Shown here piece after piece: positions 1-46,555 of a stretch of 46,555 bases of DNA. Each line of letters starts with the position of its first letter. Position 1 is the first letter of the stretch. The notes beneath the pieces were generated by a model. That model did not search any database. It was not told where the DNA came from and saw only the letters and a list, made by a program, of their open reading frames with translations. Both the position numbers and the translations under genes were made by a program. Origin of the DNA: Lachnospiraceae bacterium (lineage in GTDB: Bacteria > Bacillota_A > Clostridia > Lachnospirales > Lachnospiraceae); the NCBI GenBank assembly GCA_017516285.1, contig JAFXDD010000034.1, forward strand, positions 1 through 46,555, read 5' to 3'.

Positions 1-140
1 ACACCGCAGCTGAGGTTAGTACCGCTGCAGCCTTTCACTGAGCGAGAGCGGGTTCTAAAAGAACTTATAGCGCTGCCCTTAGCAAAACATAGTTTAACCG
101 GGAGGGAGCAATTATTCGTCACCCCCACAAACCGGAATTT
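1..140 (+). ncRNA. Structured repeat element, copy E1 (left-truncated by window edge)
   Basis: This is one of three related elements in the window (E2 at 26950-27146, E3 at 46357-46548). The window begins inside its central hairpin, at ACACC. It then carries the conserved block TTAGTACCGCTGCAGCC at 16-32 and a GC-GAGA-GC tetraloop hairpin at 42-49, equivalent to GC-GCAA-GC in E2 and GC-GGGA-GC in E3. The segment at about 51-120 is unlike the other copies and is presumably the copy-specific right arm, whose partner lies outside the window. It ends with an 18-base block (123-140) shared with E3 that runs into the glf stop codon. A structured RNA or mobile hairpin is inferred; transcription is not shown. 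Confidence 0.6.
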
Positions 141-3466: not shown

Positions 3467-5125
3467 ATGATTAGTGCAAATAATGTAACTTATCGTGTGG
3501 GCAAAAAAGCCTTATTCGAAGATGTTAATATTAAATTTACAGAAGGTAACTGCTACGGCCTCATTGGTGCAAATGGTGCCGGCAAGTCCACCTTCTTAAA
3601 AATTTTATCCGGCAAGCTGGAGACCACCAAGGGTGATATCACTATCACTCCGGGTCAGAGACTTTCTGTTTTGGAGCAGGACCACTTCAAGTACGAAGAC
3701 TGCGTGGTTATGGACGTAGTTATTATGGGTAATGAGCGTCTTTTCCAGATTATGAAAGAAAAGGAAGCTATTTATGCCAAGGAAGACTTTACCGACGAGG
3801 ACGGTATCCGTGCTTCAGAGTTAGAGGGCGAATTTGCTGAATTAGACGGATGGGAGGCAGAATCCAATGCTGCCATGCTGTTAAACGGTCTTGGTATTGA
3901 TACTGCTATCCATTATGCTATGATGAGTGACCTTACCGGTAATGACAAGGTGAAGGTGTTACTTGCCAAGGCTTTATTTGGTAATCCGGACATTTTGCTT
4001 CTGGACGAGCCTACCAACCATTTGGATTTGGATGCCATCGCATGGCTTGAGGAATTTTTGATTAACTTTGAAAATACCGTTATTGTAGTATCCCATGACC
4101 GTTATTTCCTGAATAAAGTATGTACCCATACTGCTGATATTGACTACGGCAAAATTCAGCTTTATGCTGGTAACTATGACTTCTGGTATGAATCCAGCCA
4201 GTTACTGATTAAGCAGATGAAGGAAGCTAACAAAAAGAAAGAGGAAAAGATTAAGGAATTACAGGAATTTATTTCCCGTTTCTCCGCAAATGCTTCCAAG
4301 TCTAAGCAGGCTACCAGCCGTAAACGTGCTTTGGAAAAGATTGAGTTGGATGAAATCAAGCCATCCAGCCGTAAGTACCCTTACATTGATTTCCGTCCTG
4401 ACAGAGAAATCGGTAACGAAGTCCTTACTGTTGAAGGAATTTCCAAGACTATCAATGGTGAAAAGATTCTGGACAATATTTCCTTTATCGTAGGCCATGA
4501 TGACAAGATTGCTTTTGTAGGCAGCAATGAAATTGCAAAAACCACACTGTTTAAGATTTTAATGGGTGAAATGGAACCGGATGAAGGAAGCTTCAAATGG
4601 GGCGTTACTACTTCTCAGGCTTATTTCCCGAAGGACAATACCGAAGAGTTTGACAATGACTATACAATTGTTGACTGGCTTACCGGCTACTCTCCTGTGA
4701 AGGATGTAACATATGTACGTGGCTTCCTTGGACGTATGCTCTTTGCCGGTGAAGACGGTGTAAAAAAGGTAAATATTCTTTCCGGTGGTGAAAAGGTTCG
4801 CTGTCTCTTATCCAAGATGATGATTAGCGGAGCAAACTGCCTGATTTTTGACGAACCAACCAACCACTTAGACATGGAATCCATTACTGCCCTAAACAAC
4901 GGCGTAATGAAATTCCCGGGTGTCATCCTGTTCTCCTGCCACGACCACCAGTTTGTACAGACTACTGCAAACCGTATTATGGAAATCCTTCCTAACGGCT
5001 CTCTGGTAGACAAGATTACTACCTACGACGATTACCTTGCAAGCGATGAAATGGCTCGTAAACGTACTGTTTATAACGCGGATGCTGCTAAGAAGGCTGA
5101 CGAGGAAGCTCAGCAGGATAATTAA
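3467..5125 (+). CDS. ABC-F family ATPase (YbiT/YkpA-like)
   Basis: This is a soluble tandem-ATPase protein of the ABC-F type, whose members bind the ribosome and relieve stalled translation or protect it from drugs. It has no membrane segment. The first nucleotide-binding domain has Walker A GANGAGKST (about residue 35) and DEPTNHLD. A charged linker with KKKEEKIKELQEF follows. The second domain has LSGGEKVR and DEPTNHLDMES, but its Walker A is the degenerate GSNEIAKTT, and the first domain's signature is LTGND instead of LSGGQ. The 552-residue length fits the YbiT subgroup rather than antibiotic-resistance members. ATG 3467 is preferred over TTG 3464 because AAAGGAG lies seven bases upstream of it. 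Confidence 0.9.
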   Translation: MISANNVTYRVGKKALFEDVNIKFTEGNCYGLIGANGAGKSTFLKILSGKLETTKGDITITPGQRLSVLEQDHFKYEDCVVMDVVIMGNERLFQIMKEKEAIYAKEDFTDEDGIRASELEGEFAELDGWEAESNAAMLLNGLGIDTAIHYAMMSDLTGNDKVKVLLAKALFGNPDILLLDEPTNHLDLDAIAWLEEFLINFENTVIVVSHDRYFLNKVCTHTADIDYGKIQLYAGNYDFWYESSQLLIKQMKEANKKKEEKIKELQEFISRFSANASKSKQATSRKRALEKIELDEIKPSSRKYPYIDFRPDREIGNEVLTVEGISKTINGEKILDNISFIVGHDDKIAFVGSNEIAKTTLFKILMGEMEPDEGSFKWGVTTSQAYFPKDNTEEFDNDYTIVDWLTGYSPVKDVTYVRGFLGRMLFAGEDGVKKVNILSGGEKVRCLLSKMMISGANCLIFDEPTNHLDMESITALNNGVMKFPGVILFSCHDHQFVQTTANRIMEILPNGSLVDKITTYDDYLASDEMARKRTVYNADAAKKADEEAQQDN

Positions 5126-7419: not shown

Positions 7420-10400
7420 TTACTCTTCATGTTCATCTTTTTTCTTAAATTTGATTAACAGAACTGCAATGCCTGCCAGTGCAATCAATGCTACTACTGC
7501 TATAATACCGAAGAGTGCCAAATTGGAATCATCACCCGTCTTAGTACCATTTGCACTAACTGAACCAACATAGGTATTCGTCACGGTGTGGATCTCCTGA
7601 TTGTAGGATGCGGTGTAGCCTGCCGGTACATTTTTCTCCTCAATAGTCCATACAACCTCTTCGCCGTCGTTTATAGACATTAATATCAAGCCACAAGTCC
7701 AGTTATTTGCTTCGCAAAGCTCGATATCGGATGCGTAAATGCCGTTACAATACAAGCTTACCATAATGCTACTTGGACGCTTGCCTGCTGCATTGTTGTT
7801 GTCATCCCAAATCTTGGTGAAGATGTGAATCTTGTGTTCATCACCCGGTTCCGGATCAGGTTCTGCCGGTACTCCTGGATTTGGAGTCGGTGGTGTGTAA
7901 GTATTTTCAAATACCGGTTCACTCTGGTACTCTACATTTGCTACAAGATTTCCCATCAAATTGTCCTCTACAACTACCTTCACAGTAAATTCTGTGGTAT
8001 CGTAGGTTACATGTTCGATGTTACCCTTCACTTCGCGAATACTGTATTGGTACTCTCCTGCCTTATCAAACATCTGTGGTGCAAAGGTAATATTACCTGT
8101 CGCATCATTTGTTGCCGTTGCTACAACCTTACCGCTTGCGTCAACCAGCTCGAATTCGAAGGCATTTGCTGTAAGCTCTGCATTATGGAGCACCTTCTTT
8201 GCGGAGATGATTGCAGGTGCTACTGACGGATTGTAGGTATTTATAAATACAATTTGGTCATTTGCACTAAGAGTCGTTACCGTTTCATTGCCTTTATCAT
8301 CATAGGTAACCTTGGATATTTCTTTTACATTTCCAATTAATTCTGCACTTGAACCTGCTGTTACCTCAACAATTACACGATATTCCGTATTATCATATGT
8401 AACACCTGTCAATGCATCCTTAGCACTTTCCTTAATTACATAATAATATGTGCCTGCCTTATTTACATCAGAAATATTAAATGTAAATAAATTACCCTGA
8501 TTCTCTACACTATCTTTTAAAGTGCCGATTGTCCATTTATCAGCTGCAGTATTTACAGTAGCTTCATACAATTCAAATGTAAACTTATCATCTTCTACTG
8601 CCATATTTGCACCCGTTGTATTCTGGAATACTTTATGGCCCTTCAAAGTAAACAATGCATTACTTAACTTATAAGTATTATCAAAAGTAATATCCGTTAC
8701 TGAAACTGGATTATCCAATTTCACGCCATTTGCTCCGATAATCTTCGTGATATTCTGTGAAGCAGTCAGTGTCGGATTTGTCGGATTCGTTGTTTTATCA
8801 TAGGTTATTGTTACATCTACTTTATATACTGACTTATCATAAATCATGCCCGGGATTGCAGATGCCGGAATGATTTCCGCTACATAATAAGTATCTACCT
8901 TTGATGTTACGGTAGTACCCAGGAAGGAATCGTTGTACTGGAAATAGAAGGATGCATCTCCGTTCATATCTGCCATACTGGTCACTTCAACACCTTCAAA
9001 CGTAGCCGGAACTGTACATGCTTCATCAGTAAATAATCCGAACTTGAAGGTATCCATTGAAATTTCAACACCTGTTTCATTTGTAAATTCCTTCTTAACA
9101 CGGATAATATCATCAGCATATACCGTAGTATGAATATTTCTGAAGGAAGCACTATCATTTACTCTACCGTTTACATATACACTGCCTCTAAGCTCTCCGG
9201 TACCATAGTCGGTAACTGTGACCATAATATGATGTTCCGTACTATCATAACTGATTGTATGATCCTCTAACGGCAATTCCTTAAATACATAGTAGAAGGT
9301 ACCTGCTGCATTATAAGTAGGTAATACTACCTCTACAGCATTTTTATCAGATGCACTTGCTGTAATAGCGGGTGTACTATTTGTAATTTCATACTTATCA
9401 TTTGCCTCATAAAGTGCAAACTGGAATCCGCCAACCGGCCATGTAGTAATATCGGTATTCGTTGCATTCTCAATAAATGTCTTGGTGAAGTTAAACTTCA
9501 GTCCGGTTACATCAGTCGGATCGTATACATTAGTAAACTTCAAATCTGCTTCTGCGCTTTCACCAACTTTGGTAATAGATTTTGTTGCAGATAATACACC
9601 CTGACCATTATCGGTCACAGTAATCACTACCTGATATACAGTCGAATCGTAACTCATGGTTCCGATTACTTTTTCACCTTCTTTGTACTCAATCTCACCC
9701 GGAATTTCCTTGATGTAGTAAGTATATGTTCCTGTTGAAGCATACTCAAAGTCAAAGGAGAATGCACCGGAAATTGCTGCAGATTTTGCTTCCGTCTTTC
9801 CGGTTGCATCTGCTACCGGTGTTGTACAGGAATCATCATTGTATAAACCGAAAGTAAACTCATCCGCTGTTATGTTCTTTCCTGTCACATCCTTGTCACC
9901 ATTAATAGTGATCTTTGCTTTTTCACGGATTGTGTAAGTATTTTCAAATGCAATCTGATTACCGGTTCCACCAACTTCGTTGATGGTGATAGATTTAATT
10001 ACCAATTTTGCTTGTGCTGTTTCACCTTCTTGAAGTGCTTCTTCATGAGGTACTACATGCACTGTCACATGATATTCTGTATCATCATAGGTTATAGCCG
10101 GATTTGTACCAGGCACTTCCTTTACTACATAGTAGTAATGACCAACTTTGGTATATCTTTCTACATCTGTAAATTTAATACTACCAGCGTTGTTATTTAC
10201 GGTCTGTAATGCTGTTGCATTATTTGCTACTGCAAAATCAGCATTTGTCTTATAAATAGCAAAAGCAAAATCCTTTGCCATACTAGCAGGACCGTTAAAC
10301 ACCTTTGTACCTGTGATTTCTACAGGAGTTGCTACCGTATCCAAAGCATATGTATTGTCAAATACTGCAACGTTCCCAGCAACTGCTGTCCAAGATTCTC

Positions 10401-13400
10401 CGACCTTTTCTTTAATTGTCGTAGCAGCAGTAAAACCAATAGCATCATCACCTGTTACATTTATTTCAACCTGATATATGGTTGGATCGTAAGTCATACC
10501 GACTATATCACCCGCTATTTCTTTCAGATAATATATATGTGGTTCTACAGTTGTCGAATTATACACTCTGTTGATAACCGCAGTACCACCCACACCAGAA
10601 GATACCGTCACCGGATCAGGATTAGGGCCATCAAACACCTTTTGCTCACAAGCTTCATCTATGTATAAACCAAATACAAAATCACTCTTACTGATTTCTA
10701 CACCTGTTTCATTTATCAAGTTCTTACTGATATTAATCGTTGCTACTGCCTGATGATAAATATTTGTAAAGTTTGCATTATTTAATGTAATTGTATATGC
10801 ATCACCAGTTCCACTTACTGTTACAATATCACTTGCCGTAACTTCCAAATATCCATCCATGTCAGCATCTGCTACAGTAACACGGAAATTATAGACAGTA
10901 TTGTCATATGCCATACCAGCAATTTTATGCTCTGCGTCCGGTTCCACTTCAATAACTCTGTAATAATGGATACCCGGAGTAGCATACTCAAAAGTCGTAT
11001 TGATACTGAAATTCGAATTTGTCTTGGTTGCAGTACCTGTTGCACCTTCAACATTCTGCCAGCCGCTTACATACTCCTGTAACTGGAATGCGAAACTATC
11101 CGCATCCTCCCATTCCCTGCCAGAGATCGTTTTTGTTCCAGTAATACTAAGTGTAGTAGCATTCTTATCACTTACAGTATATTCATTCACCAAATCAGCC
11201 CGTACCGTTTGGTCAGAAATAATTGTTCCAGTCAGGCTAGCTGTATCTGTCTTCTGTTCGAAACCTGTAGGTATTTTATCTACTGTCTCTGTAACCGTAT
11301 ACTCTGTATTTTCCGGGATTCCCTTAATAGTTACAGAATCTTCATGCCCTAATTCCAGTGTAATTTTTCCGCTGCCGTCTGTTGTTAATTTTCCAGCAAC
11401 AGCAGTACCATTATTTACAGTACCGGTTGCATCAAATTCTTTAGATGCATTACCAGCACCTAACTCTACAACAACTTCAAATACTTTCTTCGGAACTACA
11501 TACTCATCACCATAGTCATGAGTAACAGTCTTAGTAACCACCAAATCACCCATATGAGAACTTGCAGTATTTACAAAGGTAACCGGATTTAAAGTATACT
11601 CTATAATAGTTCCACTTGCTGTGCCTGTAACTTCTTTCACGCGATAGCTCTCGTGCCTCTGCTCTGTTACTGTATAGGTAGTACCGGTCTCTAATCCTAT
11701 AATATAAATAGTTTCAGCGTTTTTTACATCAACAGTGACAGTTTTATTATCAGTACTCACTACGTGTCTACCAACTAATTCTTTACCATCTGCATCAAGA
11801 ATTTTTAGCGTAGCAGGTACTTCCTTATTTGTTAATGTAATATCAAACTTAAACGTCTCCGTTCCTGCTGCCACCGCAGCATCATCAATCGTCTTGGAAA
11901 GCTTGATGCCCTGCGCAGAATACATTATCAAACGTCCATTATTACCAAGAAAATCATAAATATGATAATCCTCTGATGCACTAGTCGGATGAATTAACAC
12001 CGGATAATCATAATAGGTAAGGGTACCTGTTATATTATCGTTATTTTCAGCAATATCTTTTTTCTCAACACGATGGCGTGCAATCTGCTGATAAATCTGA
12101 CCGGCAGGAATATACCAGCCCTTGTCATCCTTTGTAATCGCAAGATCTCCTGTCGCAGCCAGTACGGCGGAGTCAACCGGAACGTATTTATAGCTTATCT
12201 CAGCATTTGTAGAACCGGATACCGTTGTCTTTATAATTCTGTATCTGTGATAATACCCGTCGCCTGTAGGTGCTGCCGTACCTGTATATAAAGTACCGCT
12301 TTCATCAGAATAAATGTAACTGTCTTCTGTATAATAATATCTCTCATTTTCTAATGAAGGATGGTAATGAGAAACTACTGCCAAATGGTTGTTCGGATCC
12401 AGTTTATCTGTTACACCGCTGCCATCCAGAATATGTCCTACACCCCAACGGTTAGAATAAAAAGCATATCCTACTGTATTGTTATTGCCGTCCTTAACCG
12501 GATGCGTATGGCTCTCTTTTGCCATATACTTCATGAGGTTAATTTCATTAATTTCATCTAAGATTCCTACTTCAAACAATAAACGGATAGGTGACTCTTC
12601 GTCCATTGTAAGTTTCACTTCTGTTGCAGTATCGAAACTGTTACTATTTACTTCTACCGTATATTTCGTCATCGGCACCAGACTTGCTGGAACCTTGAAA
12701 ATCACACATTCTTCACCGGTCGTAATATCTTTATGAACCTGGACGATAATATACATCATGTCGCCACCTTCTACATGGCCGTATTCCTCATCCAATTCTC
12801 CATAGAAGAAATAGCACTTATTCAAATACTTTGTGCCTTCCGGGTAGTTCAATGCAGTATGTGCTTTTGTATCCCAGTGTCCCAAATAATTGCCGGATGC
12901 ATCTGCATACCATCCAATAAAATGATCCTGTGTAAGCTGATTGTCAGTTGAACGCCATGCCGTTGCAAGAAGTGCTCTCGCCTGATCATTTCTGATGTTC
13001 AAACGCTCCTGTACTGATACCAAAAACTCTTCACCGTATTCAGTCCAGGTAGAAGCATTACCAAATTTGTCTGTTTGTGTCAATGCATTGGTAAATGCAG
13101 CACCGGTAAACAATACCTCTCCGATTACAAGGCCCTTCATGCTCTTTACTTCCACATACCTGCCAAGTTCATCTTCAAAAGTAATGTAGCCGTCCAACTC
13201 ATATTCTCCGCTTTCTACCAAGGTAGGATAATACTTGGACTGAATTACAATCTGTGAAACAATTTTATCAAAAGCTTCTAACAATCCGCTTGTATTAGAA
13301 GCCGGAAAATACTGATCTGAATAATATCTATTGGCAGTTAATGTATCCGTAGCAGATTCTACACGGGTAATTGTATTATTACCATAACTATAATCGGCTA

Positions 13401-14580
13401 TCTGACTGTTTACAGCAGTACTCTCATACTTTGTCCACCATCCGCTTACTGTATCGGAGGTATTATTCAAAGGGTCAAGCACTCGTCTTGCTTCCGCATG
13501 TTCCACATCATAACCCAGTGTATAAAACAGACTTTCCCGACCATACTTCTTTTCAATCTGACTACGTAAATGTGCAGCAGTAAGCTGTGCCGGAAATACC
13601 AAATAATCACTAATACTGTTGGCGGTTCCGTTACCGAGATTTCGGTTATTATTCGTAGCCTGTGTATAGTTTGTAGCACCACGGGTAGGTGCACCGTCAG
13701 ACATCAGTACTACAATTGGAATACGCTTAGTACCCCCCTGAATCAGACCGGTTTCAATCTCTGTGTCTTCAACAGCTTCAAACAAAGTCTCTGCCTGATA
13801 CATACCGCCCTGAATATAGGTTGAACCACCGGTATTAATATATCTGTTTACTGTATTATTGCTACTATCTGTTACATTATAGGTTGTACTACCATAACCA
13901 CCCCAGCTTATGGTTCTGGCTGTACGAATCTGTCTACCTGTCTGCGGACCGTAACTTTGATTACTCGCAATTTCTAAATAAACATTATATGCGTCCTCTC
14001 CGTATCCTGCTGTTTTGGTTGTGGTATAACGATCAATCGGAAGCAGTACACTGGCATCCGTACCATACACAACTACACCAACTCTATTGTGCAAGTTTAA
14101 ATTTAATAACTCATCAATCGCCTTATTTGTTGCCTCTACCATTGAAGTCAATTCACTGGATTCCATACTGTTGGAAACATCAAGAATCAAAACAGTATCA
14201 GAAGGCAAATTAGAATAACCCAACACCTCTTTTGTAGCCCCCAGTGCCGACAAAGATACAAGGAAATTATCATCTGCAATAGAAATTGTAGCATCTGCAC
14301 CTGTACTGTCTTTGCTTATTTCGAACTTACTTGTTAAAGAATCACTCTTTGTAAATACAGATTTATCTGTCCATACCGCTCCGGCATACTCTGTACTATC
14401 TGATTTAAAGTAATCCTTGTAGCTCCAAATTGCATCGGCATCGGCAATATACTCCTTACCGGCTACACTGCTTAATGCCACATCATGACTTACTGCATCT
14501 GCATATACCGGCATTACACTTGTCGGTATCATGCTGACAAGCAGCGCCAATGATAAAATTGTTGAAATGATTTTTTTCAT
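7420..14580 (-). CDS. Giant cell-surface adhesin: VWA domain plus repeated pilin-type isopeptide domains
   Basis: The 2386-residue protein has a signal peptide (about 1-30, ending VYADA). A von Willebrand A domain follows with MIDAS motif DVSNS at about 135-139. Then comes a long array of Spy0128/Cna-B-like beta domains. I count about ten, each starting with a motif such as ITGTK, INGDK or ISAKK, containing F-x-F-x-L-Y, then YYxxKE, and ending near F-x-N-x-Y. Those Lys, Glu and Asn positions usually form internal isopeptide bonds. A Pro-rich stretch, a last Cna-B-like domain, a membrane helix (about 2354-2377) and a KFKKK tail end it. The expected LPxTG is replaced by NGTKTGD. A LuxR-type gene lies 68 bases upstream. 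ATG 14580 suits the GGAGGGG site better than ATG 14583. Confidence 0.9.
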   Translation of the reverse strand: MKKIISTILSLALLVSMIPTSVMPVYADAVSHDVALSSVAGKEYIADADAIWSYKDYFKSDSTEYAGAVWTDKSVFTKSDSLTSKFEISKDSTGADATISIADDNFLVSLSALGATKEVLGYSNLPSDTVLILDVSNSMESSELTSMVEATNKAIDELLNLNLHNRVGVVVYGTDASVLLPIDRYTTTKTAGYGEDAYNVYLEIASNQSYGPQTGRQIRTARTISWGGYGSTTYNVTDSSNNTVNRYINTGGSTYIQGGMYQAETLFEAVEDTEIETGLIQGGTKRIPIVVLMSDGAPTRGATNYTQATNNNRNLGNGTANSISDYLVFPAQLTAAHLRSQIEKKYGRESLFYTLGYDVEHAEARRVLDPLNNTSDTVSGWWTKYESTAVNSQIADYSYGNNTITRVESATDTLTANRYYSDQYFPASNTSGLLEAFDKIVSQIVIQSKYYPTLVESGEYELDGYITFEDELGRYVEVKSMKGLVIGEVLFTGAAFTNALTQTDKFGNASTWTEYGEEFLVSVQERLNIRNDQARALLATAWRSTDNQLTQDHFIGWYADASGNYLGHWDTKAHTALNYPEGTKYLNKCYFFYGELDEEYGHVEGGDMMYIIVQVHKDITTGEECVIFKVPASLVPMTKYTVEVNSNSFDTATEVKLTMDEESPIRLLFEVGILDEINEINLMKYMAKESHTHPVKDGNNNTVGYAFYSNRWGVGHILDGSGVTDKLDPNNHLAVVSHYHPSLENERYYYTEDSYIYSDESGTLYTGTAAPTGDGYYHRYRIIKTTVSGSTNAEISYKYVPVDSAVLAATGDLAITKDDKGWYIPAGQIYQQIARHRVEKKDIAENNDNITGTLTYYDYPVLIHPTSASEDYHIYDFLGNNGRLIMYSAQGIKLSKTIDDAAVAAGTETFKFDITLTNKEVPATLKILDADGKELVGRHVVSTDNKTVTVDVKNAETIYIIGLETGTTYTVTEQRHESYRVKEVTGTASGTIIEYTLNPVTFVNTASSHMGDLVVTKTVTHDYGDEYVVPKKVFEVVVELGAGNASKEFDATGTVNNGTAVAGKLTTDGSGKITLELGHEDSVTIKGIPENTEYTVTETVDKIPTGFEQKTDTASLTGTIISDQTVRADLVNEYTVSDKNATTLSITGTKTISGREWEDADSFAFQLQEYVSGWQNVEGATGTATKTNSNFSINTTFEYATPGIHYYRVIEVEPDAEHKIAGMAYDNTVYNFRVTVADADMDGYLEVTASDIVTVSGTGDAYTITLNNANFTNIYHQAVATINISKNLINETGVEISKSDFVFGLYIDEACEQKVFDGPNPDPVTVSSGVGGTAVINRVYNSTTVEPHIYYLKEIAGDIVGMTYDPTIYQVEINVTGDDAIGFTAATTIKEKVGESWTAVAGNVAVFDNTYALDTVATPVEITGTKVFNGPASMAKDFAFAIYKTNADFAVANNATALQTVNNNAGSIKFTDVERYTKVGHYYYVVKEVPGTNPAITYDDTEYHVTVHVVPHEEALQEGETAQAKLVIKSITINEVGGTGNQIAFENTYTIREKAKITINGDKDVTGKNITADEFTFGLYNDDSCTTPVADATGKTEAKSAAISGAFSFDFEYASTGTYTYYIKEIPGEIEYKEGEKVIGTMSYDSTVYQVVITVTDNGQGVLSATKSITKVGESAEADLKFTNVYDPTDVTGLKFNFTKTFIENATNTDITTWPVGGFQFALYEANDKYEITNSTPAITASASDKNAVEVVLPTYNAAGTFYYVFKELPLEDHTISYDSTEHHIMVTVTDYGTGELRGSVYVNGRVNDSASFRNIHTTVYADDIIRVKKEFTNETGVEISMDTFKFGLFTDEACTVPATFEGVEVTSMADMNGDASFYFQYNDSFLGTTVTSKVDTYYVAEIIPASAIPGMIYDKSVYKVDVTITYDKTTNPTNPTLTASQNITKIIGANGVKLDNPVSVTDITFDNTYKLSNALFTLKGHKVFQNTTGANMAVEDDKFTFELYEATVNTAADKWTIGTLKDSVENQGNLFTFNISDVNKAGTYYYVIKESAKDALTGVTYDNTEYRVIVEVTAGSSAELIGNVKEISKVTYDDKGNETVTTLSANDQIVFINTYNPSVAPAIISAKKVLHNAELTANAFEFELVDASGKVVATATNDATGNITFAPQMFDKAGEYQYSIREVKGNIEHVTYDTTEFTVKVVVEDNLMGNLVANVEYQSEPVFENTYTPPTPNPGVPAEPDPEPGDEHKIHIFTKIWDDNNNAAGKRPSSIMVSLYCNGIYASDIELCEANNWTCGLILMSINDGEEVVWTIEEKNVPAGYTASYNQEIHTVTNTYVGSVSANGTKTGDDSNLALFGIIAVVALIALAGIAVLLIKFKKKDEHEE

Positions 14581-14651
14581 CATTTACCCCTCCTTTTAAA
14601 TTTCTTAAGTATAATAATTAAATCATTTTTATCCTGTGTTATTAAAATTTG

Positions 14652-26949: not shown

Positions 26950-27146
26950 TAAGCATTCAACCTTGTTGTAGGACATCGAACCGAAGCACAGTGCCTTTGA
27001 ATGCCTTCTAGCGAGCGTCGGTCCTTAGCGAAGCAAGGTGTTAACACCGCTGCTGAGCTTAGTACCGCTACGTGAGCTTAGAGCGCAAGCGTGCTGAAAA
27101 GGCACTGTGCTTCGGTTCGATACCCTATAGCAAGGTTGAATGCTTA
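26950..27146 (+). ncRNA. Structured repeat element, copy E2 (complete)
   Basis: This 197-base element fills the gap between the YdcZ-like gene and comEA. The outer arms 26950-26998 and 27098-27146 are inverted copies of about 49 bases with few mismatches. Inside are CGGTCCTTAGCGA (27019-27031), a hairpin AGC-AA-GGTG-TTAA-CACC-GCT-GCT (27032-27053), TTAGTACCGCT (27059-27069) and a GC-GCAA-GC GNRA-loop hairpin (27083-27090). The same parts occur in the same order in E3, and partly in E1, with paired base changes in the stems. Orientation is defined by TTAGTACCGCT. It could be a non-coding RNA, a mobile hairpin or both. The outer palindrome may also stop transcription from the arginine operon. 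Confidence 0.65.
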
Positions 27147-27149
27147 CCA

Positions 27150-27581
27150 CTACTCCCATTTAAAAATCACAATACCCACAATAGCAATGCCCATGCCAAG
27201 TATTTTGCGCCATGAAAAGCCCGTTTTATCCATGCCAAACATTCCAAACACTTCGATTACATAAGCCACAATCAGCTGGGAAATCACAATCAGCATAGCT
27301 GCCTTTGCCGGTCCCAGACTACTCATACTCTGAATAACCGTATAAGTAATAAAAGCTCCGATAGCGCCTCCTAACAGCATATACTTTGGCTGTACGGTAA
27401 ATACCTGCAGTAAAGGCTGTCTTTCAAAAAGCGCCCATGCCCCCAGACATACCAAAAGTGCTGAAAATTGTACAAAGGCTGCTGCTGCCCAGATACCACT
27501 AGCTTTTGTAACCTGAGTGTTAAATACACCCTGAACGCTCATAAGCGCTCCTGAAATAACCGCAATTAAAAATCCAATCAT
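27150..27581 (-). CDS. YdcZ/DUF606-family membrane protein (DMT superfamily)
   Basis: The 143-residue protein has five predicted membrane helices and the family pattern: N-terminal MIGFLIAVISGALMSVQGV, a middle helix with PKYMLLGGAIGAFITYTVI and a short C-terminal helix. YdcZ proteins are half-size members of the drug/metabolite transporter superfamily and probably work as dimers; the substrate is unknown. It lies 65 bases after the solute-binding protein gene on the same strand, at the end of the arginine operon. Its stop codon is only three bases from the arm of element E2. Confidence 0.85.
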   Translation of the reverse strand: MIGFLIAVISGALMSVQGVFNTQVTKASGIWAAAAFVQFSALLVCLGAWALFERQPLLQVFTVQPKYMLLGGAIGAFITYTVIQSMSSLGPAKAAMLIVISQLIVAYVIEVFGMFGMDKTGFSWRKILGMGIAIVGIVIFKWE

Positions 27582-46356: not shown

Positions 46357-46555
46357 AAATTCCGGTTTGTGGGGCTGCGGCCACCCCAGTTTTCAATAAA
46401 GGAAGGTATCACAGGCTCATTTTTGGGGACGCTCCCGCTCAACGAAAGGCTGCAGCGGTACTAACCTCGACTTCGGCACCTATGCCTCGTCTCGCTAAGG
46501 ACCGGCGCCTTTCAATGCCCCATAAACGAGCGTGTGATACCTTCCTTTTCTGTAG
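46357..46555 (-). ncRNA. Structured repeat element, copy E3
   Basis: Read on the minus strand it contains an outer arm (46548-46518), AAAGGC, GGTCCTTAGCGA (46503-46492), a hairpin GAC-GA-GGCA-TAGG-TGCC-GAA-GTC, TTAGTACCGCTGCAGCC (46464-46448), GCCTTT pairing with AAAGGC, a GC-GGGA-GC hairpin (46438-46431), and the second outer arm (46428-46398). The outer arms are inverted copies of about 31 bases with four mismatches and are unrelated to those of E2. It ends with the 18-base block shared with E1 (46374-46357). The arms reach close to the window edge, so the element may extend further. Confidence 0.65.

Follow-up and report, generated by a model that had tools for sequence, protein, structure and literature searches.

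E1, E2 and E3, three related copies in the window (the whole stretch of 46,555 nucleotides analysed here), are probably members of a mobile hairpin family, non-coding and non-autonomous, with elements of ~180-250 bp that would be mobilised in trans and whose arms and core would be reshaped by template switching. Members of the family are dispersed in multiple copies, are present at some orthologous sites and absent from others, are flanked by target-site duplications in two genomes, have cores that are inverted between relatives, and keep their pairing without a preference for G-U. The family occurs in gut and rumen bacteria of Lachnospiraceae and their relatives.

The first-pass annotation had described three copies of a structured element with shared motifs. 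E2 (26950-27146, plus strand) and E3 (~46394-46552, minus strand) are both complete copies of one such element. They have GGTCCTTAGCGA and TTAGTACCGC in common, separated by exactly 27 bases in each, and the motif pair with this spacing gave 0 matches in 100 shuffles of the window. On re-reading the sequence, the stem changes quoted for E2 and E3 and the tetraloops GAGA, GCAA and GGGA were all correct. E1 holds the 3′ half of the element, with TTAGTACCGCTGCAG and the GC-GAGA-GC hairpin plainly readable, but it is only half a copy, cut at the window edge. The covariance model R1 gives a remnant match on E1 at 11-51 (11.2 bits, E 0.48), a low score because the 5′ half falls outside the window. 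The features of the three copies are as follows.

1-51, plus strand: 3′ half of the E1 core, read from the sequence, with the small hairpin P3 at 42-49 (GC-GAGA-GC).
26950-26999, plus strand: 5′ outer arm of E2, partner of 27098-27146 (fold, z -14.6).
27009-27092, plus strand: core of E2, comprising the stem P2 with conserved sides CCTTAGCGA / GCTTAGTACCGC, a tip hairpin and the small hairpin P3 (R1 match of 65.0 bits, E2 being part of the R1 training set).
27083-27090, plus strand: P3 mini-hairpin of E2, GC-GCAA-GC, read from the sequence.
27098-27146, plus strand: 3′ outer arm of E2 (fold).
46516-46552, minus strand: 5′ outer arm of E3, limits approximate (fold, z -6.3).
46429-46514, minus strand: core of E3, with P3 at 46431-46438 (GC-GGGA-GC) (R1 match of 68.4 bits, E3 also being part of the R1 training set).
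46394-46428, minus strand: 3′ outer arm of E3, limits approximate (fold).

E2 and E3 each cap long self-complementary arms, a feature absent from the earlier annotation, and shuffles as stable as these folds (z-scores of -14.6 and -6.3) were found in 0 of 200 cases. The outer arms of E2 are unrelated in sequence to those of E3, and the genes adjoining the window copies are unrelated to one another. The stop codon of a YdcZ-like gene (27150-27581, minus strand) lies 3 bases from the end of the 3′ outer arm of E2. Both ends of the window lie in or beside element copies, as would be expected if the assembly broke at the repeat. The same 18 bases, CCCCACAAACCGGAATTT, follow E1 (123-140, plus strand) and E3 (46357-46374, minus strand); they are absent elsewhere in the window, and therefore from E2, and from all collected element loci. 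The window also contains a repetitive ORF of 2387 aa (7420-14583, minus strand), which is surface-protein-like by eye.

The elements share a plan of variable outer arms, a three-way junction, the stem P2 and the small hairpin P3 (GC-GNRA-GC). P2 contains conserved mismatches, including a U-U mismatch, and a 2-base bulge, and its sides are invariant in the common form; 26 columns are invariant among 60 representatives. P3 is a hairpin of two pairs with a GNRA loop. Since the alignment A2, on which R1 was built, was chosen by a pattern demanding a GNRA-like loop, the loop counts were drawn from other sets. The loop is GNRA as aligned in 58 of the 60 representatives, a set not chosen for the loop, and inspection of the other two by eye indicates that the loop of L013 is also GNRA once a register shift is allowed for, whereas L048 truly departs from the rule. 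A second count, which required the 2-pair stem and left the loop free, gave GNRA in 129 of 150. In alignment A1, the P3 columns are paired in 97.5% of cells, with 6 double changes. Among the genomes that R1 picked up, G122, G179 and some relatives have other helices in place of the inner P2 sequence, with P3 kept. Tip sequences differ widely between copies, and the arms are nearly unique to each copy, with little common sequence across copies. Across 96 copies, the median pairing score between the two arms of one copy is 17, compared with 7 for pairing with the arms of other copies. These 96 copies remained of the 124 pattern hits in the window and 122 loci after 16 were set aside by judgement (8 as chance, 4 as a related variant, L021/L046/L096/L112, and 4 as members with off-consensus or cut flanks), together with 12 more that lacked a flank. 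At L050 (~3794-3870), an extra hairpin-like sequence breaks the P2/P3 junction of a copy.

In public genome contigs of bacteria and archaea, the motif pair occurs in at least 119 stretches, 6 of which were judged to be chance matches. According to the record titles of the motif-pair stretches, more than half come from Lachnospiraceae and most others from Bacillota or Clostridiales, with animal guts as the main source. One copy, at L073, is in the record of Lachnospiraceae bacterium FE2018, which is not a MAG. Exact-pattern copies number 1 to 25 per genome (18 genomes, reached via 20 of the loci). With a looser pattern, 13 of 101 genomes of one sampled genus match, and the sister genomes G001 and G002 have 28 and 30 matches. 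In one order, an R1 search (E up to 1e-4) matched 12 of 196 sampled genomes, with up to at least 23 copies per genome; at most 23 candidates were scored in each, a ceiling that three genomes reached. The element behaves as a mobile repeat and not as a fixed RNA gene. The patchy and high-copy distribution is the profile of a mobile repeat; we note that many of the copies are related to each other, so that the counts do not represent independent events. The surrounding genes, called with a crude ORF caller, are convergent at 33, tandem at 42 and divergent at 12 of 87 sites, which we do not take as proof. E2 has no match in the phage and plasmid collections, and the two pattern hits on viral contigs were judged non-members; carriage by phages or plasmids was therefore dropped as an explanation.

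Orthologous sites with and without the element were compared in two settings. Among 397 sampled genomes of the host's taxonomic family, the closest relative at the E2 neighbourhood is G005, where DNA identity is 71-79% over three syntenic blocks, and E2 and both its arms are absent from the syntenic site. Between G001 and G002, 24 queried flanks yielded 20 sister-site comparisons, the other 4 having no separate sister site. The element is kept in 8 of the 20 comparisons (7 loci), and 2 sister sites are clean and empty, with the element and its arms missing (those of L117 and L034). Remnants of a deleted copy are left at 3 sister sites (those of L012, L072 and L097), TwoAYGGAY fills 2 others (L164 and L168), and the remaining 5 are too rearranged to classify (L005, L048, L060, L090 and L094). 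For 20 further, more distant sites, the analysis consisted of the Rfam scan. Absence at a site may reflect loss, as three sister sites carry the remnants of deletion.

In G005 and G035, the elements have a common outer terminal repeat, TAGGYNATTGCGAAACTC, which at up to 2 mismatches occurs 69 times in G005 and 88 times in G035, compared with 0 and 6 times for the reversed pattern. With the ends fixed by TAGGYNATTGCGAAACTC, elements containing the core are mostly 203-206 bp long. Direct repeats of 8-13 bp (at least 8 bp, at most 1 mismatch, end offsets of 0-3 bases) are located at the ends of 15 of 55 elements bounded by this repeat, whereas shuffling gave a mean of 0.96 and a maximum of 4. Ten of the 15 duplications are 11-13 bp long, a length that resembles the duplications of some IS4-family transposons. 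Duplications anchored in this way are confined to G005 and G035, the two genomes in which TAGGYNATTGCGAAACTC was recognised; no shared terminal repeat was recognised in the other genomes. Without fixed ends, direct repeats of at least 9 bp are found near 12 of 111 copies, compared with 20 of 551 control pairings, which is a modest excess; four of these twelve are exactly at the element ends, all in G005 (L066, 14 bp; L088 and L114, 11 bp; L091, 9 bp). G005 also contains short hairpins of ~48-54 bp (L285, L286 and L290) that consist mainly of the terminal repeat and are missing the core, and the terminal repeat has 28 single hits in viral contigs.

Among the candidate domains searched, we found no mobiliser or autonomous partner. 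The Y1 transposase domain (PF01797) is over the cut-off in 3 of 8 genomes and was not found over it in the carriers G035, G005, G002 and G104, which are draft genomes and may be incomplete. The DDE_Tnp_1 domain is present in 3 of 6 genomes, and the reverse transcriptase domain in 7 of 12 carriers and 7 of 14 genomes with no element match. None of the three tracks the presence of the element in the genomes searched, and the link to reverse transcriptase was dropped, as the last two proportions indicate no association. Pairs of copies ~130-1,100 bp apart are found in several genomes (L299-L305), mostly pointing outward, with the L303 pair pointing inward. A composite transposon was considered and dropped because the long-spaced pair L299/L300 encloses a gene that by eye is polysaccharide-deacetylase-like.

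Flank alignment at 20 orthologous loci revealed that the core is inverted at 7 and keeps its orientation at 13. The inverted loci are L007/L163, L036/L057, L051/L116, L104/L179, L115/L180, L070/L074 and a four-genome locus at which L013 and L045 stand against L049 and L054. The same orientation is found at L002/L078, L010/L089, L011/L068, L022/L052, L059/L101, L067/L173, L102/L119 and L099/L178, and also at the variant locus L021/L096/L112, L299/L300 (two loci), L306/L309 and L307/L310. At L115/L180 and L104/L179, the core is turned with the arms in place and the flanks unchanged. Template switching between inverted repeats is described as homogenising the arms and inverting the spacers in the parts of PMC8604942 and PMC8794818 that we draw on. 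Arm homogenisation and spacer inversion thus being a described outcome of template switching, covariation above shuffles is no proof of RNA.

The first-pass annotation had read the paired changes as the mark of selection on RNA structure, and the rival explanation that this reading implies is a gene for a structured non-coding RNA, or a regulator acting at the RNA level, that was spread by duplication and whose pairing is selected in the transcript. Covariation is indeed above the shuffled background on most measures, with 126 double-change cells compared with 38.6 in A2 and 26 compared with 4.2 in A1; one of the five measures, further pair types, has no excess over shuffles (36 vs 33.7 in A2 and 5 vs 6.1 in A1). 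Of the two mismatch types, G-T alone can still pair in a sense-strand RNA (as G-U), and selection for pairing would therefore tolerate G-T above A-C. The outer arms have 103 G-T and 114 A-C mismatches in 92 arm pairs (92 of 136 copies, those with an arm score of at least 14), P2 has 71 and 63 in 134 cores, and P2 of the other lineages has 13 and 11 in 23 cores. Core flipping weakens this test for the arms and leaves the P2 test unaffected, and transcription of both strands would also even out the counts. With G-T showing no excess over A-C in the arms or P2, as template switching on DNA predicts, the paired changes are no proof of selection on RNA, and the pairing looks to be kept at the DNA level instead. 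An RNA role does draw support from P3, with its GNRA loops in 58 of 60 and 129 of 150 copies of sets not chosen for the loop and its near-complete pairing and double changes in A1, and from the 26 invariant columns. These loops suggest some RNA-level constraint on P3. However, mini-hairpins of DNA are also very stable when they have a GNA or GNNA loop and at least two G-C pairs, as stated in the part of PMC4686876 consulted. This DNA rule does not account for the purine at the third position of the P3 loop in nearly every copy, a feature that remains the strongest hint at an RNA role. Core inversion relative to the neighbours at 7 of 20 loci and the patchy copies, some lost by deletion, also argue against an RNA gene or regulator, which we consider unlikely as the main explanation.

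The inversions with unchanged flanks, such as L115/L180 and L104/L179, would also fit an inverton-like switch, with a dedicated recombinase turning the core around between the arms and so altering expression of the neighbouring genes. We regard such a switch as improbable: recombination would have to take place at the arms, whose sequences have little in common from copy to copy, the genes adjoining the window copies are unrelated, orientation is kept at 13 of the 20 orthologous loci, and template switching gives inversion with no enzyme. The near-uniqueness of the arms, and their position directly after a terminator-like hairpin at several G001/G002 loci (by eye), might instead indicate that the core alone inserts, with the arms being terminator hairpins of the host or target sequence. 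This is very improbable, as both arms are missing at the clean empty sites, what is left after a deletion is part of an arm joined to part of the core, and the duplications are found at the outer ends of the arms. For a mobile hairpin mobilised in trans, we infer that the element would move as a unit via an enzyme reading the terminal repeats or the folded hairpin, and that template switching between the arms during replication would then keep them complementary and flip the core. Outside G005 and G035, copies with near-identical cores have differing arms; this weighs against the explanation, since such copies would not be expected if a fixed unit simply transposed.

The first-pass annotation could not assign the element to an RNA family, and the Rfam comparison agrees, with 0 matches in the window at the gathering score. 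Looser scans gave no credible match over a copy at seven loci (E up to 0.1) and eight sister-site loci (E up to 1), and a MIR1437 hit on L180 was rejected as chance (E 0.82; 26.1 bits compared with a gathering score of 168). The literature search, which covered few subscription journals, found no paper on the E1-E3 element family. TwoAYGGAY RNA (RF01731), for which a table in PMC2864571 gives 'y' under RNA and 'n' in the two columns that follow, is alike in several respects. It is dispersed in high copy number (matches in 4 of 16 genomes, with 19, 18, 30 and 13 copies), and its self-complementary arms, which are unique to each copy, lie outside the Rfam model (median pairing score of 24 within a copy and 7.5 with the arms of other copies, from 29 of 30 loci). 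It also has no wobble excess (40 G-T and 61 A-C), and it fills sister sites of the E1-E3 family at L164 and L168. On one contig of G024, it has 30 matches (L202-L231). Its core and loop motifs are different, and the RF01731 model has no match over any E1-E3 family copy scanned. These similarities suggest that TwoAYGGAY is mobile DNA too.

REPINs and REP doublets mobilised by RAYT are, like the E1-E3 family, short, non-autonomous, palindromic extragenic hairpins with compensatory changes along the hairpin, as described in the consulted part of PMC3116915. Unlike these systems, the E1-E3 family has a three-way junction and, in two genomes, duplications of 8-13 bp, and 5 of the 8 genomes searched, including four carriers, have no Y1 transposase domain over the cut-off. 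MITEs such as ERIC, Correia/NEMIS and RUP resemble it in having ~100-200 bp, no transposase gene and long stem-loops, and some have terminal repeats and target-site duplications, according to the portion of PMC2229807 used here. As MITEs are, the E1-E3 family is small, multi-copy and too short for a transposase gene. Terminal inverted repeats with target-site duplications were found in G005 and G035 only (15 of 55 elements, shuffled mean 0.96). Judged by the descriptions of these MITEs, it is set apart by its per-copy arms, inverting core and GNRA mini-hairpin. We judge the best reading to be a new family of MITE/REPIN-like mobile hairpins with a lifestyle in common with TwoAYGGAY.

An abundant repeat family unmatched by Rfam is now described, and it is linked to TwoAYGGAY, an Rfam 'RNA' that appears to be mobile DNA as well. 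In palindromic repeats, processes acting on DNA can produce covariation, which should be read with caution; comparing G-T with A-C counts helps to separate the cases. The family also provides a natural set of hairpins for measuring arm homogenisation and spacer inversion. Tentatively, and with considerable doubt, we propose that the E1-E3 family and TwoAYGGAY could be separate lineages within one hitherto unrecognised class of mobile DNA hairpins, which would compete for the same sites and be recognised by an enzyme through their fold (bulge, mismatches and GNRA mini-hairpin) and not their sequence. If such recognition by fold is true, the arms, and even the sequence of P2, would be free to drift.
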